A stretch of 20,173 nucleotides of DNA, taken from positions 1 to 20,173 of IMG/VR virus record IMGVR_UViG_3300035666_000202, one strand, 5' to 3'. The position numbers and the translations under genes were made by a program. Under the pieces are notes generated by a model. It saw only the letters and a list, made by a program, of their open reading frames with translations, searched no databases and was not told the DNA's origin. Below are positions 4,367 through 18,171 of the stretch, one piece after another. The first letter of the stretch is position 1. Every line of letters begins with the position of its first letter. The stretch comes from a virus.

Positions 4367-4827
4367 CTTGCACCTCCGTTGCAGCCGTCGTTAAATGCCG
4401 ATTCCACGACGCGCACAAGCCACAATCCGAAATACGCGCGCTGCTGCGGGTTGCCGCTGATCGAGTACGCGCGCACGAGTCCACCCAGTGACATATTCGG
4501 CGCGTCGTCGTGCCACGCTGCCAACCGAATGTCACCGATGATCGGCGATCCGGCAATCGAGTATTGCACCGCAGCTGATGCGGACTCGTGCTGAAAAAAC
4601 GCATCACGCGATCCGCCGACGACGCGCAGGTATTGCACAGCGTCTACCGGCTGGAGGTATCCGTATGCTCTGCCCTGGACGATTACGGATCGGCGCAGTG
4701 GCTGCTGTGTGGTGATCGTCTCTGGCCGATAGACGCACACCGGCCCTCCAGGTGCGTCGAATGACTGAGCGTGGGCGGGAATAGCCAGTGCGACTATCAC
4801 GAGTATTGAAGCAATTATCAGTTTCAT
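4363..4827 (-). CDS. Secreted or periplasmic protein with signal peptide, unknown
   Basis: 154 residues from the ATG at 4827, chosen because AGGAGA precedes it and because this start gives a clean signal peptide: MKLIIASILVIVALAIPAHA, with AHA before QS as the likely signal peptidase I site. A longer upstream extension in the same frame is not used, since it would run through the neighbouring small gene. The mature part contains two Cys (CVYRPE and DGCNGG) that could form a disulphide. No family recognised. It sits among tiny membrane proteins at the distal end of the leftward operon, suggesting an envelope role such as exclusion or lysis control; this is inference. Confidence 0.65.
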   Translation of the reverse strand: MKLIIASILVIVALAIPAHAQSFDAPGGPVCVYRPETITTQQPLRRSVIVQGRAYGYLQPVDAVQYLRVVGGSRDAFFQHESASAAVQYSIAGSPIIGDIRLAAWHDDAPNMSLGGLVRAYSISGNPQQRAYFGLWLVRVVESAFNDGCNGGAR

Positions 4828-4847
4828 CGTTCTCCTGTTGTGGCCAT

Positions 4848-4931
4848 CTACCAGATAGCCAGAAAATAAACGAGTAGCGCGAGTCCTGTGCAAAAGAGAA
4901 AGATCGGGAGTGGATGCTCTTGTTTTGTCAC
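4848..4931 (-). CDS. 27-residue single-span membrane microprotein, GTG start
   Basis: Reads (V)TKQEHPLPIFLFCTGLALLVYFLAIW. After a short polar start, one hydrophobic helix (residues ~9-27) runs to the C-terminus. The GTG start overlaps the stop of the upstream gene (GTGA), and GGAGGT lies close before it. Such tail-anchored microproteins occur in phages as membrane-targeted toxins, exclusion or lysis regulators; no specific function can be claimed. It escaped ordinary length cut-offs. Confidence 0.5.
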   Translation of the reverse strand: MTKQEHPLPIFLFCTGLALLVYFLAIW

Positions 4932-5086
4932 GCGCCACCTCCGAATCTGAGCCAGCCCAGCCAACCGATGAGGGCCATCGTGACGAGCGCAAACAGTTTC
5001 CAGCCTGTGGTTTCGCTTTTCCGTGTTATCAGGAATAGCCCCAGTGGAAACGTCGTTGCCAGTAGATAGATGATCACGTAATCCAT
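4928..5086 (-). CDS. 52-residue two-span membrane protein
   Basis: Reads MDYVIIYLLATTFPLGLFLI, a TRKSETTGWK loop, then LFALVTMALIGWLGWLRFGGGA: two hydrophobic helices joined by a short charged loop. The ATG overlaps the previous TAA by one base (TAATG), and GGAGGTG lies 8 bases upstream inside the previous gene. It ends in a GTGA overlap with the next microprotein. The topology resembles small class II holins or antiholins, but size and topology alone do not prove lysis function. Confidence 0.55.
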   Translation of the reverse strand: MDYVIIYLLATTFPLGLFLITRKSETTGWKLFALVTMALIGWLGWLRFGGGA

Positions 5087-5614: not shown

Positions 5615-6241
5615 CTATGCACGCGCGGTCACAATGCCGCGCTGATCTTGGTATTTGCCCTGCCGGTCACCGTACGTGACAGCAGGACGCTCGTCGAGTG
5701 CAATCATCACCAGCTGGCCGATGCCCTCGTGCGCATATACGCGCATCGGTAGAGGCGTGGCGTTGGACAGCTCAAGCACAAGCTGGCCCGTCCAGCCGGG
5801 TTCAAGTGGTGTCGTGTTGAGGATGAGTCCGCACCGCGCATAAGTTGACTTGCCAATCACGAGCCCGAGATGATCATCAGGCATCGTGATGCGCTCGTGG
5901 CTTACGCCCAGCGCGTACGAGTGCGCCGGCAGTGTGTAGTAGGCATTAGATTTATTGTCGTGCTTTACTTCTAACGACGTCAAACATTGATCATCAAAAC
6001 GCTTTGGGTCAATGACCACGTTCTCAACAGCCGTAAACAGCTGCAGACCTGCCACGCTCAGCGACAGGTCATATCCTGCTGACGACGTGCCATAGCTGAT
6101 GACGCGCCTTGCCTCGACCGGACAAGGCCGACTAATACCATGCGTATAATCAGGCCTATGAGCTTCCCGCACCTGACCAGCGTGGAAAACGTTGAGGATC
6201 TGTGGCCCGTGCTGATGCCACCAATTGTCACTGCGGATCAT
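5615..6241 (-). CDS. dcd: dCTP deaminase
   Basis: 208 residues. It deaminates dCTP to dUTP, the first step toward dTMP. Family landmarks in order: SSAGYDL (53-59), GKSTYARCGL (130-139) containing the Ser132 and Arg136 equivalents of the active site, LEPGWTGQLVLELSN (146-160) with the catalytic Glu157, and GKYQDQRG (195-202) for nucleotide binding. Length is normal for Dcd (about 190-200). All key residues appear intact. A bifunctional deaminase/dUTPase is possible because no separate dUTPase is seen here. It starts at an ATGA overlap with the upstream gene. Together with ThyX (17100-17837) it would feed phage thymidylate synthesis. Confidence 0.92.
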   Translation of the reverse strand: MIRSDNWWHQHGPQILNVFHAGQVREAHRPDYTHGISRPCPVEARRVISYGTSSAGYDLSLSVAGLQLFTAVENVVIDPKRFDDQCLTSLEVKHDNKSNAYYTLPAHSYALGVSHERITMPDDHLGLVIGKSTYARCGLILNTTPLEPGWTGQLVLELSNATPLPMRVYAHEGIGQLVMIALDERPAVTYGDRQGKYQDQRGIVTARA

Positions 6242-6625: not shown

Positions 6626-6886
6626 TTAATCGGTCACGTCCTCTGCGCGAACGCGCACCGCGCGACCATCGTAAGCCACGAGCCATGTCAGGTGATATGG
6701 GCCCATGTCATGGACTTTAGTGGCGACGGCTTCGCACTCCAGCAGTCCGTTGTGATCAGCTACGATATAGAGTCGTTCACCTTCGATGACATCCTGTATC
6801 GACCTGCCAGTTGGCACAGGCAGCTGAACTGCGCGCCCATTGGCAATGTGTCGACCAAAGATTGCGTGAGCTTGTTTGTTAGTCAT
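6626..6886 (-). CDS. Small phage protein, unknown
   Basis: 86 residues, mixed alpha/beta (RAVQLPVPTGRSIQDVIEGERLYIVADHNGLLECEAVATKVHDMGPYHLTWLVAYDGRAVRVRAEDV). The strand pattern suggests a small beta-barrel (SH3- or OB-like), possibly interacting with nucleic acid or protein; that is a guess. It overlaps the upstream gene by 8 bases within the leftward operon. Confidence 0.65.
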   Translation of the reverse strand: MTNKQAHAIFGRHIANGRAVQLPVPTGRSIQDVIEGERLYIVADHNGLLECEAVATKVHDMGPYHLTWLVAYDGRAVRVRAEDVTD

Positions 6887-7361
6887 ACATCATGTCATCT
6901 ACATCATTAGAATTTGCAGATGCGTAGTGCGGCTGTATTTTCGCACGAGCTGGAGTCGGACTAATATCTGATTCAGATTCCGTTTGGCTACATTGACGAT
7001 AATAACCAGGCATCATGAGTGCGTCTGCTATTTCTGAAACTCTGCATCCCAGCCTAGCAGCGCATAGATGCCTATAATGCAACTCAGTGCAGTAAAAGAT
7101 CCTTGCCCAATCCAAGCGAGTAAAAAACTGCGACCAATCTGAATTAAATGAAGGCACGTTTGGTGCTTTTAATACCAGATCCGTCATAGTGTCTAGGTAG
7201 GCTTCAAATTCGACGCGACTCGATCTCCACTCATTTTTCGGGGGGTAATTGAGATCGCGCATGTGCTGAAAACTTTGAAAAGTAGCGGTTGCTTTGATAG
7301 GGTCGTTTATCAACGACGTGCGCATAAATTCGCGCACGTCGTTTTGTGATTTTATTAGCAT
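6879..7361 (-). CDS. Phage protein, unknown, AT-richer than neighbours
   Basis: 160 residues. Contains aromatic-rich helical segments (WSQFFTRLDWARIFYCTELHYRHLCAARLGCRVSEIADALMMPGYYRQC) that include a possible helix-turn-helix (LGCRVSEIADAL), and ends in an acidic tail (NDVDDMMYD). Its base composition and codon choice look more AT-rich than the genes on either side, hinting at separate acquisition. The ribosome site GGGGAGGGCAA resembles the sequence before the 6582 gene. No family recognised. Confidence 0.65.
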   Translation of the reverse strand: MLIKSQNDVREFMRTSLINDPIKATATFQSFQHMRDLNYPPKNEWRSSRVEFEAYLDTMTDLVLKAPNVPSFNSDWSQFFTRLDWARIFYCTELHYRHLCAARLGCRVSEIADALMMPGYYRQCSQTESESDISPTPARAKIQPHYASANSNDVDDMMYD

Positions 7362-11525: not shown

Positions 11526-11681
11526 TCAAGGGATTTTGGTTACAGCACAACAGAGCGACCGGCGGTGATCCCGCAACCAGTCAATCGCCGCATTCCGGGG
11601 CAGGGTGCGGCAGGGATAGAGGCCGAGCCAATCGGGGTGCAACTCCCCGCTATCTCTTCCAACAATGCGTTGGAGTTTCAT
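11526..11681 (-). CDS. Possible 51-residue protein in the control region
   Basis: Reads MKLQRIVGRDSGELHPDWLG and continues to DWLRDHRRSLCCAVTKIP. GGAG lies nine bases before the ATG at 11681. No promoter was found for it and no family is recognised. It lies within the otherwise gene-free stretch 11431-11913, opposite a possible rightward transcript. It could equally be chance; kept as a low-confidence gene. Confidence 0.3.
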   Translation of the reverse strand: MKLQRIVGRDSGELHPDWLGLYPCRTLPRNAAIDWLRDHRRSLCCAVTKIP

Positions 11682-11709: not shown

Positions 11710-11735
11710 AGGGGGAGCAATCCCCCTAATTTTTT
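11710..11735 (+). terminator. Intrinsic terminator with GCAA loop
   Basis: GGGGGA (11711-11716), GCAA, TCCCCC (11721-11726), extended by an A-T pair and followed by AATTTTTT. A compact rho-independent terminator that insulates the following promoter from upstream rightward transcription. Confidence 0.75.
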
Positions 11736-11743
11736 GCTATAAT
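11735..11743 (+). promoter_or_regulatory. Extended -10 promoter for the replication operon
   Basis: TGC followed by TATAAT (11738-11743), a perfect -10 with the TGn extension. No good -35 is present because the terminator hairpin occupies that place. Predicted start at about 11749-11751, exactly where the structured leader begins. Confidence 0.7.
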
Positions 11744-11748
11744 GTATC

Positions 11749-11900
11749 TGGCCGCTGGGGTGACGCCCGGCAACGGAGGCCACATGGGAAACTGGGCAAT
11801 ATCAACATCAATGAGCCTTTTGAGAAGGCGGGTCAGGCAACCGATAGGCCGTCAACCTATCACCAGTTTCCCACCTGCCCGTTTTCTCAAAGGGCTTTTT
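11749..11900 (+). ncRNA. Structured ~150-nt leader RNA with pseudoknot and attenuator potential
   Basis: Starts at the predicted transcription start and ends in a U run. Elements in order: TGGCC (11749-11753) pairing with GGCCA (11778-11782) around an inner GCTGGG/CCCGGC stem; L1 TGGGAAACTGG (11785-11795); L2 at 11815-11832 plus 11834-11837; hairpin GATAGG (11843-11848)/CCTATC (11856-11861); R1 CCAGTTTCCCA (11863-11873), perfect partner of L1; R2 at 11874-11895, pairing with L2 over 22 bp with one bulge and three G-U pairs. The order L1-L2-R1-R2 makes the two helices cross, an H-type pseudoknot. The L2:R2 helix followed by TTTTTG at 11896-11901 can also be an intrinsic terminator. Probably controls initiator expression; homology to a known RNA family is not recognised. 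Confidence 0.65.
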
Positions 11901-11927
11901 GTTTGGAGGTTACTTGAAGCTGACTAA
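11784..11927 (+). CDS. Possible 47-residue leader peptide overlapping the initiator start
   Basis: Reads MGNWAISTSMSLLRRRVRQP and ends LKGLFVWRLLEAD. GGAGG lies four bases before the ATG. The frame runs through the structured leader and stops at 11925-11927, 11 to 14 bases inside the initiator gene that starts at 11914. This arrangement matches leader peptides coupled to plasmid rep genes. The peptide itself is Arg-rich and shows no family, so the act of translation may matter rather than the product. Tentative. Confidence 0.4.
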   Translation: MGNWAISTSMSLLRRRVRQPIGRQPITSFPPARFLKGLFVWRLLEAD

Positions 11928-12837
11928 AATTCTTGGAAGTCCAATTGCCTTCCATCGATGCCTTGCAGAGCTGGCCGGATCCGTGACATCTGGATTGATG
12001 CTCAGTCAGGCCGTGTACTGGACGGGGAAGACGAAAGATCCGCAGGGATGGTTTTGGAAGACTCAGGATGAATGGTTTGAAGAGACCATGCTGAGTCGAA
12101 AAGAGCAAGAATCTGCTCGTCGTCGACTGCGTGAGATCACCTTTGAGGGCAAACCATTGTGGTGTGAGCAGCTGCGTGGCGTACCCGCAAAGCTTTATTA
12201 TCGAGTCGATATGGACATTCTTGAATGCCTTTTAACGGCAGATCAGCATGTCCAAAACGGTCAAGCCAGTATGCCCGAAATGGACATACTAGAAAGCCCA
12301 AAACGTGCAAGCAAGCAAGCCCAAAATGGGCATACATTCTTATTAGCAGAGACTACTACAGAGACTACTACAGAGACTACATCAGAGAGGGTGAGTGCGC
12401 GTGAGGCTTTGGTGATCTCGCAGGAGACGACACCAGCCAGACCGCACACACTGCAGGAGGAGGACGCTGTATCAATTGCAGTCAGCTTTTTTCCGCAAAT
12501 GGGGATCTGGCAACAGGAGCTGATTGCAAATGCAGACATCAGCAAGTTGCACATATGGCGACAGGTCATGCAGATATGGCGCGATCACAAGCACAGCCGC
12601 AACAACATTCACGGGATGATTGACAAGTATAATCGTTTCGAAACTCAAGATATTAGAGACAAGGAGTATCAGGCCAATGCAAAGAATGGAAATGGACATA
12701 AACGCGAATCGCACAACGAGCGCGCAGCTCGAGAGACCTTCAATCTCATCGCAAAACTCACAGGACAGGAAGGCGGCGATGATCGCCCTGATCCAGCAGA
12801 CTCGATCTTTAAGCTCCCTGCCGCTTTCGGCGGGTGA
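11914..12837 (+). CDS. Replication initiator (lambda O-like) with origin inside the gene
   Basis: 307 residues from TTG at 11914, preceded by GGAGGT; no ATG suits. Residues ~1-108 form a winged-helix DNA-binding domain (LTKILGSPIAFHRCLAELAG, LMLSQAVYWT, WFWKTQDEWFEETMLSRKEQESARRRL, LYYRVDMDIL) typical of phage O/DnaD-type initiators. A polar linker (~109-160, with VQNGQASMPEMDIL and ETTTETTTETTS) is encoded by the repeats at 12250-12384. The C-terminal part is helical (IWQQELIANADISKLHIWRQVMQIWRDH). It should bind the phage origin and recruit helicase with the next gene's product. Regulation by the structured leader is likely. Confidence 0.75.
   Translation: MKLTKILGSPIAFHRCLAELAGSVTSGLMLSQAVYWTGKTKDPQGWFWKTQDEWFEETMLSRKEQESARRRLREITFEGKPLWCEQLRGVPAKLYYRVDMDILECLLTADQHVQNGQASMPEMDILESPKRASKQAQNGHTFLLAETTTETTTETTSERVSAREALVISQETTPARPHTLQEEDAVSIAVSFFPQMGIWQQELIANADISKLHIWRQVMQIWRDHKHSRNNIHGMIDKYNRFETQDIRDKEYQANAKNGNGHKRESHNERAARETFNLIAKLTGQEGGDDRPDPADSIFKLPAAFGG
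12250..12341 (+). repeat. Four 23-bp iterons, candidate replication origin
   Basis: Units start at 12250, 12273, 12296 and 12319, exactly 23 bp apart. The first 17 bases of each fit GCCCAAAAyGkgCAwrC (units 2 and 4 match at 15 of 17, units 1 and 3 at 14 of 17). As 23 is not a multiple of three, adjacent units are read in different frames, so the similarity is at DNA level. They lie in the linker-coding part of the initiator gene, as lambda iterons lie in gene O. Confidence 0.8.
12349..12384 (+). repeat. Three 12-bp direct repeats next to the iterons
   Basis: GAGACTACTACA twice (12349-12360, 12361-12372), then GAGACTACATCA (12373-12384). They encode ETTTETTTETTS, and 12 is a multiple of three, so protein-level repetition is also possible. 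An AT-rich stretch (12334-12346) lies between them and the iterons. Confidence 0.75.
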
Positions 12838-17099: not shown

Positions 17100-17837
17100 A
17101 TGGATCAGGACACGGAAATCAAAACATATGGCAGCGTGGAACTCGAAGAGCGGTGGGGCAGCGATGAGGACATCGCCCGACGTGCGCGCGTCTCGACGGG
17201 ATCAGAAAATAAAGGCAGGCTCAAAGATCGGCGGCTGCTCAGGACGCTGATCGAGAATGATCACGGATCCCCTCTCGAGCTGGCTGGCATCGTTTACCGG
17301 TTGCATATGCCGCTACACCTTGTAGCACAGATGCAGCGTCACCGGATGGCTTCGTATTCCCAGCGATCCGGGCGATATGTGGAAATGGGCCTGACGTTTC
17401 ATCGCCCCCACACGTGGCGCAAGCAGGGTGATAGCAATCGCCAGGTATCCGGGGGGCCGATCGACGATCAGGTATCGGCGATCAGTCTATTTATTGACGC
17501 CATCGCCGAGGCTACACACGCCTACACGCGACTTCTCGAGATGGGAGTGAGCAGAGAGCAGGCGCGGACGATATTGCCGCAATGCACCGAAACTGAGCTT
17601 TACGCGCAGTTCAATCTCCGATCACTGATGAACTTCCTTCGCCTTCGCACCGCTCCCGACGCACAAGGCGAAATGCGCACTTACGCAAACGCAATGGAGA
17701 TGATCTTTGCCACGCAGTTCCCGCTGACCTATCAGATCTATCGACTGGCGCAGAGTGTCGATGCTGACCTTGCCGACAATCGCCGCGAGTTGTGGCACAG
17801 TGGAATCGTTGATGTTGAAAACAGCGAAGGCGCGTGA
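17100..17837 (+). CDS. thyX: Flavin-dependent thymidylate synthase ThyX
   Basis: 245 residues, GGAGGACGAG before the ATG. It methylates dUMP to dTMP using FAD, NADPH and methylene-tetrahydrofolate. The ThyX signature RHRMASYSQRSGRY (80-93) matches RHRxxSxxxxSxRY fully. Other family regions: ARRARVSTG (26-34), ENDHGSPLELAGIVYRL (52-68), AQMQRHR, and ARTILPQCTETELYAQFNLRSLMNFLRLR with the conserved Arg-rich end. Normal length for the family. Last gene before the late leader. Together with dCTP deaminase it gives a dCTP-to-dTMP route, lacking a visible dUTPase. Confidence 0.93.
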   Translation: MDQDTEIKTYGSVELEERWGSDEDIARRARVSTGSENKGRLKDRRLLRTLIENDHGSPLELAGIVYRLHMPLHLVAQMQRHRMASYSQRSGRYVEMGLTFHRPHTWRKQGDSNRQVSGGPIDDQVSAISLFIDAIAEATHAYTRLLEMGVSREQARTILPQCTETELYAQFNLRSLMNFLRLRTAPDAQGEMRTYANAMEMIFATQFPLTYQIYRLAQSVDADLADNRRELWHSGIVDVENSEGA

Positions 17838-17838
17838 A

Positions 17839-17867
17839 TTGCAAAAAAGTTTTTTGCCTGATAGTGT
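17839..17867 (+). promoter_or_regulatory. Candidate late promoter with A/T palindrome
   Basis: TTGCAA (17839-17844), 17-base spacer, TAGTGT (17862-17867) with the TG extension at 17859-17860. The spacer contains the perfect palindrome GCAAAAAA-G-TTTTTTGC (17841-17857), an operator or terminator candidate for the upstream operon. The -10 is only half consensus. Confidence 0.45.
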
Positions 17868-17913
17868 AGCTATTGTACGACTAAGCGGTCGTGCTTTGAT
17901 GATACTCCAACTT

Positions 17914-17943
17914 GACGACCTCTTGTGGGTCGTCTTTTTTTTT
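17914..17943 (+). terminator. Strong intrinsic terminator before the lysis genes
   Basis: GACGACC (17914-17920), seven-base loop, GGTCGTC (17928-17934), then nine T. It lies about 45 bases after the possible promoter and 21 bases before the holin gene, so late genes would need read-through or antitermination from this side. Confidence 0.85.
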
Positions 17944-17964
17944 GAGGCAACGGAGACACTGGAA

Positions 17965-18171
17965 ATGGACAACGGAATATCAGTTTGGGTTAAGGGCCTT
18001 GTGGCCGCCATCGTTGGCGGTGCCGCAAACGCGATCACGGTAATCGTGGTCGATCCGATTAATTTCAATTTGGCGGAGGGCTTTGGGAAGGTCGGGCAGG
18101 TGGCCATTGTTGGTGCGCTGATCGCTGCCGCGGCATACCTGAAGCAGTCGCCCATCCCGGAGGTAAAGTAA
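17965..18171 (+). CDS. Holin-like two-span membrane protein
   Basis: 68 residues from the ATG at 17965 (GGAG nine bases before); in-frame upstream codons cross the terminator and are rejected. Segments VKGLVAAIVGGAANAITVIVV (~9-29) and VGQVAIVGALIAAAAYL (~43-59) are hydrophobic, joined by DPINFNLAEGFGK, and end in KQSPIPEVK. The Gly/Ala-rich pattern with the terminal LKQSPxP recurs in small phage membrane proteins before lysis or packaging genes, and size fits class II holins. The holin role is likely from topology and position but not proven. Confidence 0.6.
   Translation: MDNGISVWVKGLVAAIVGGAANAITVIVVDPINFNLAEGFGKVGQVAIVGALIAAAAYLKQSPIPEVK

Follow-up and report, generated by a model that had tools for sequence, protein, structure and literature searches.

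The DNA analysed here, referred to as the window, is a 20,173-base record of an uncultured virus from IMG/VR. Its gene order is lambda-like, with tail fibres, a leftward early block and a rightward replication operon whose first gene codes for an O/DnaD-like initiator (rep), ahead of the genes for ThyX and the terminase small subunit. A leader RNA lies at the head of this operon (Table 1), within which a terminator scan finds few strong terminators. A hairpin resembling a terminator, GACGACCTCTTGTGGGTCGTC with nine T behind it, is present at positions 17914-17934 within the predicted ORF 17755-18171 and may mark the end of the replication/ThyX operon. A 12-bp inverted repeat (AACGACGTGCGC...GCGCACGTCGTT, 7312-7343) is found close to the start of the leftward ORF 6879-7361.

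Table 1. Elements of the leader region in the window
Feature	Position	Strand	Sequence and remarks
Extended -10 promoter	11735-11743	+	TGCTATAAT; predicted RNA start 11749-11750
5' hairpin	11749-11782	+	P1 UGGCC/GGCCA; P1b GCUGG (11754-11758)/CCGGC (11767-11771)
P1b conserved loop	11759-11766	+	RGUGACGC
UGACG of P1b loop	11761-11765	+	complementary to P3-loop CGUCA 11850-11854; putative kissing loops
47-codon leader ORF	11784-11927	+	GGAGG at 11775-11779; ORF not conserved in the family
H1 5' arm (pseudoknot helix)	11785-11795	+	TGGGAAACTGG; 8 of 11 pairs with two-sided changes
P2 local hairpin	11815-11829	+	GCCUUU-UGA-GAAGGC; bases shared with terminator helix H2 (its lower 5' arm)
H2, whole helix	11815-11837 with 11874-11895	+	22 pairs, one bulged U (11833), three G-U pairs
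P4 5' arm (upper H2)	11830-11837	+	GGG-U-CAGG; bulged U 11833
P3 hairpin	11843-11861	+	GAUAGG/CCUAUC, loop CCGUCAA; covaries
H1 3' arm	11863-11873	+	CCAGTTTCCCA; 11 perfect pairs with 5' arm; covariation
P4 3' arm (upper H2)	11874-11880	+	CCUGCCC
Intrinsic terminator	11881-11904	+	lower H2 3' arm GUUUUCUCAAAGGGC, U-tract UUUUUGUUU (TTTTTG at 11896-11901); covariation with P2 loop bases
Shine-Dalgarno (SD) of rep	11905-11909	+	GGAGG; outside all helices
Replication initiator, O-like/DnaD-like	11914-12837	+	TTG start; phrog_9773 E 6e-37, phrog_6493 E 7e-15

Several of these elements had been described in an initial annotation made from the letters of this stretch, and they are present where it had placed them: the extended -10 ahead of a hairpin, the perfect 11-bp helix H1, the 22-bp helix H2 with one bulge, the interleaving of their arms as an H-type pseudoknot, the terminator at H2, and the 47-codon ORF with its GGAGG, whose TAA ends 14 bases into the initiator gene. 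To H1 and H2 the present analysis adds P3, the invariant complementarity between the P1 and P3 loops, and P2. Among 400 dinucleotide-shuffled versions of the region, a perfect helix of at least 11 pairs, the length observed, arises once and a bulge-free one of at least 18 pairs never (observed 21). The folding z-score of the leader region is -3.1. The comparative evidence for the leader helices is stronger than these shuffle and folding statistics.

Relatives of the leader and covariation of its helices

With the initiator protein as query, IMG/VR yielded five relatives, all of which carry the same RNA upstream. DNA patterns derived from the leader core extended the family to about 17 contigs with 16 distinct copies. 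The RNA is about 150 bases long, and usually 8-12 bases separate its end from the SD of an early-operon gene. A second initiator search yielded ten relatives, all ten in contigs already in the family, and relaxed patterns without fixed P4, P3 or loops found the same contigs only, so that the search alone does not account for the strong conservation of GGCGGGUCAGG...ACCUGCCCG. A 15-base H1 pattern matched 60 contigs, which were checked by the core pattern.

The leader appears to be previously uncatalogued, with no such family in Rfam. When Rfam 15 was run on the window, the leader and its relatives, no family reached the gathering score for the leader RNA, and at E<=10 only chance microRNA and SgrS models were obtained. 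Blastn comparisons of three leaders with phages, and of the window leader with plasmids, gave nothing meaningful. In a pattern scan of genome contigs, two of the matches listed (at least 119 places) have a nearby T-run, and these two lack all other features of the leader. The leader model R1 has no match in samples of 399 genomes of one phylum and 8 others, and homologues of Rep in cultured phages of Erwinia, Pseudomonas, Vibrio and Synechococcus are not preceded by the leader. No relative of the leader was thus found in the cultured phages, plasmids and bacterial genomes searched, the genome searches being samples.

Fourteen copies were aligned with MAFFT and covariation was counted across all of them. 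In this alignment 96.2% of the cells are paired, 18 pairs show two-sided changes, and the covariation score is 0.292 versus 0.04-0.07 for slid versions of the structure. Both helices are supported by compensatory changes: 8 pairs of H1 and 4 pairs of H2 have two-sided changes, and two trees give at least 11-19 coupled changes in H1 and 11-14 in H2. H1 falls into six sequence classes (UGGGAAACUGG, UGAUAAGCGC, UGGGAAGGG, GAAAGGGAA, AGGUAAACGA and UGAAAGGGAC); its 3' arm always matches the class of the 5' arm and ends 0-2 bases before P4. P1b has three pairs with two-sided changes and P3 also covaries, these counts being lower bounds for P1 and P3 because MAFFT misaligns their outer pairs in some rows. 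The UGACG of the P1b loop is complementary to the CGUCA or UGUCA of the P3 loop in all 14 aligned copies, four pairs being invariant and the fifth G-C or G-U. As only one of the five pairs varies, we can only infer that the two loops kiss.

The leader model scores 113-148 bits on the plus strand versus 24-34 on the other, on which the invariant G-U pairs would turn into A-C mismatches; the minus strand was therefore rejected as the functional one. It is close to certain that the leader RNA is real and structured. This adds a covariation-supported RNA, not in Rfam, located at the head of the replication operon in a group of phages.

Genes behind the leader and the leader reading frame

The promoter of the leader is of the sigma70 type. 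In nearly all copies 5-7 bases separate the end of its -10 from P1, which would place the start of the RNA at P1. An SD is found after the U-tract in all copies but two (L075 and L089, where it is further away), whichever gene comes next. The next gene codes for initiators with two kinds of amino terminus or for other proteins. In L067 it codes for what we take to be a ParB-like/MT-A70 methylase and in L075 and L089 presumably for a SNF2-like helicase, and in L002 and L006 a small gene that we assume to be unrelated lies between the leader and rep, assignments made by reading the sequences and not from database matches; the gene behind the leader of L076 is not recognisable by such reading. 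One phage (L071/L086/L215) has two leader copies on the same strand of one operon, 2.6 kb apart, the one before a helicase gene and the other before rep. Because the leader precedes varied genes, and does so twice in one operon, the module consists of promoter, RNA and SD and is not a part of rep. Autoregulation specific to rep as its sole role was rejected, since the first genes vary.

In the two-copy phage the copies lie at L220:2232-2374 and 4835-4982. The bulged base of P4 is A instead of U in one relative copy, the first of these, which also has GUGACGA in the P1b loop. The initiators of L072, L083 and L006 have a carboxyl-terminal part in common with the window rep (DAVSIAL..FPQMGIWQQE...) and differ in their amino-terminal domains, which appears to reflect modular exchange of the latter.

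It is unlikely that the phages make the terminated leader for its own sake, as a stable small RNA acting in trans, with read-through into the operon being incidental. Its own promoter, strong terminator and highly conserved core would suit such an RNA, as would the larger distance to the next gene in L075 and L089, but the tight, fixed SD spacing of the other copies and the duplication of the leader before a second gene in L071 argue against it.

A start codon is located on the first pair of H1 in 9 of the 16 copies, and the frame is open in all nine; the other seven have no start codon, and three of them have an open frame. Copies with a start differ in the frame that passes through the conserved core (frames were read by hand), hence no peptide is conserved. 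The start absent from 7/16 copies and the differing frames led to rejection of the leader peptide as a conserved element and imply that leader translation is not the common mechanism of the family. Translation may matter in part of it. GGAGG precedes the leader start in the window, L002, L006 and L076, and the ORF ends at or just past the next start codon in L071, L076 and the window. Such features, together with the open frames of 9/9 copies with a start versus 3/7 without, favour attenuation by a leader peptide, in which ribosomes starting at the AUG on the first H1 pair would hold H1, P2 and H2 open. This mechanism is nevertheless improbable in view of the seven copies lacking a start codon and the differing frames and peptides; its outcome, for which our expectation is just as low, would be either that termination is prevented or that translation is coupled to the next gene.

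In IncI/IncB plasmids a leader RNA with a pseudoknot precedes the replication initiator and is combined with an overlapping leader peptide and an antisense RNA, a repY-repZ control reportedly described by Asano and Mizobuchi in 1998 (cited in PMC10724649). The initial annotation had seen the same logic in the window, in the combination of leader peptide, pseudoknot and rep gene. Under such control, translation of the leader would unlock the pseudoknot and allow translation of rep, with an antisense RNA as control. The likeness lies in a pseudoknot and an overlapping leader ORF before the initiator, which are found together in the window phage alone. The family differs in having no conserved peptide, in not being tied to rep (the first gene is often another one), in its unpaired SD and in the presence of a terminator instead. 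In the window, H1 ends 31 bases before the rep SD with the terminator arm between, and a promoter scan predicts no sigma70-like promoter on the minus strand near the leader from which an antisense RNA could start. A control of the repY-repZ kind is accordingly very unlikely, and what is retained of the earlier reading is a pseudoknot-capable leader with a terminator before the replication operon. Sequestration of the SD was rejected as well: the rep SD lies outside all helices, which leaves nothing for the pseudoknot to unmask. The competition that is conserved opposes a local hairpin to a terminator and points to transcription.

Competing folds of the leader

A terminator hairpin with a U-tract is present in every copy, with GGCUUUU in 16/16, the U-tract of the window being interrupted (UUUUUGUUU). 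The local hairpin P2 (GCCUUU-NNN-GAAGGC) is paired in all 14 aligned copies. Its loop bases covary freely with the 3' arm of H2, while the changes in its stem are one-sided and all compatible with P2, so that two-sided covariation of P2 is absent from the alignment. H2 contains two adjacent invariant G-U pairs opposite G's needed by P2, as expected if these G's must pair in P2 too.

The predicted energies of H1 (about -14 to -23 kcal/mol), P2 (-5 to -7) and lower H2 (-22 to -25) are comparable. In all 16 copies the nascent fold consists of H1 and P2, and nested folding at full length yields the H2 terminator, the exclusivity of H1 versus P4/H2 being partly built in because the folding program excludes pseudoknots. 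Folding of the growing transcript gives H1 a probability of at least 0.96 until the P4 arm is transcribed and P2 a probability >0.95 in most copies, or ~0.6 in L067 and L071/L086. According to A-form geometry, H1 stacked coaxially on full H2 requires ~88-96 A, whereas the linker reaches <=76-88 A in four members, whose linkers of 11-13 nt are too short for this arrangement. The pseudoknot with P2 requires 40-53 A and fits all eight members tested. This steric argument assumes coaxial stacking, and the 4/8 members with longer linkers are only strained or unhindered. The nascent and full-length folds, the strand shared by P2 and H2, and the geometry together suggest a terminator/antiterminator pair.

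We consider it rather likely that the leader is a cis-acting transcription attenuator of the early rightward replication operon, with the pseudoknot as antiterminator. Its folds probably decide whether the replication genes behind are switched on, since the knotted fold would compete with a transcription stop signal. On the emerging RNA, P1, P2 and P3 would form, the P1 and P3 loops would kiss and H1 would close, and the pseudoknot would be complete once CCUGCCC pairs with GGGUCAGG (P4). The stacked H1-P4-P2 would then hold P2 closed, so that the terminator stem cannot zip and RNA polymerase reads into rep. Were the pseudoknot unmade or pulled open, the 3' arm would invade P2 and form the 22-bp hairpin at the U-tract, stopping transcription with release of an RNA of ~150 nt. 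A small molecule, a protein, a ribosome or the speed of transcription might be the signal that acts on the pseudoknot. If this switch operates, phage replication would be licensed by an RNA fold and not by a repressor protein alone.

A fixed 5' structure, there to protect or insulate the mRNA and not to switch, could also account for a 5' terminal hairpin and very stable folds. It is scarcely probable, as the strand shared by P2 and H2 and the conserved kissing loops would then need another reason.

The attenuator reading has counterparts among bacterial riboswitches. The ZTP (pfl) riboswitch is a transcriptional ON switch in which the ligand stabilises a preformed pseudoknot; if not stabilised, a strand of the hairpin goes into the downstream terminator, which is the more stable fold (PMC7337938). 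In the leader, too, the pseudoknot would be an antiterminator preformed in the nascent RNA, and a hairpin strand is shared with an intrinsic terminator predicted to be the more stable fold. The leader differs by its pseudoknot helix of 7-12 bp, by the loop-loop contact to the 5' hairpin and by its location in a phage replication operon. In the guanidine-IV riboswitch a kissing loop hinders completion of the terminator stem (PMC11611296), a role that the kissing loop of the upstream fold may have in the leader, which possesses the long pseudoknot helix in addition. As far as sequence and folding logic go, the leader has terminator and antiterminator on one strand, with a pseudoknot and kissing loop in the antiterminator; Rfam gives no match to a conserved ZTP or guanidine-IV aptamer in it. 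The attenuator, if confirmed, would place a phage system beside the pseudoknot-antiterminator mechanisms of bacterial riboswitches. A riboswitch-like RNA in the strict sense, whose kissing 5' hairpin and long pseudoknot sense a signal and choose between terminator and antiterminator for the replication operon, is a more tentative proposition. The signal might then be a small molecule, a protein of the phage or of its host, or the condition of RNA polymerase in the infected cell, candidates that are put forward with similar reserve.

Control of phage replication genes by premature termination in a leader also has a precedent in the immunity of phage P4, where transcription terminates before the replication genes through the CI antisense RNA (PMC4825925). 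The leader would resemble P4 in this outcome, but its competing folds belong to one RNA and an antisense promoter is not predicted. The put RNA of HK022, like the leader, is a structured RNA behind phage early promoters (PMC9378689). Processive antitermination of this type, in which the folded leader would bind RNA polymerase and make it ignore its own and downstream terminators, would agree with the position of the leader directly behind an early phage promoter and with the finding that several relatives have, upstream of the leader, a further terminator just in front of an SD. We give it little weight: put has ~70 nt and two stem-loops without a terminator of its own, model R1 finds no match in positions 26000-40751 of HK022 (a limited test), the operon of the window has few strong terminators to be ignored, and a second copy in the same operon would be superfluous.

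Several minor features accompany the leaders. Upstream of the window leader, positions 11613-11656 can adopt a miniature tRNA-like fold with a 7-bp acceptor-like stem, a T-arm CGGGGTGCAACTCCCCG and TTCCA, and match weakly, under the gathering score, the model of the tRNA-like mascRNA. ARAGORN finds no tRNA before the leader and Rfam none in relatives other than L076, which has a tRNA match of 37 bits at 1714-1795, just before the leader; L005 and L075 have tRNA-like stretches before it when inspected by eye. In L003-L006, about 200-300 bases ahead of the leader, a strong terminator hairpin with T6-T7 immediately precedes a short ORF with its SD and ATG, and L071 has, near 5850, a strong hairpin with T6-T7 in the same terminator-then-SD order as the leader. 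Finally, L224 (before rep) and L225 (before a small gene ahead of rep) carry at about 4400-5000 the leader tail only (CTCAAAGGGCTTTTTG or similar), to which another hairpin, ACAGGTATATGAC...GTCATATACCTGT, is attached; this arrangement appears to be a remnant or a replacement of the leader.
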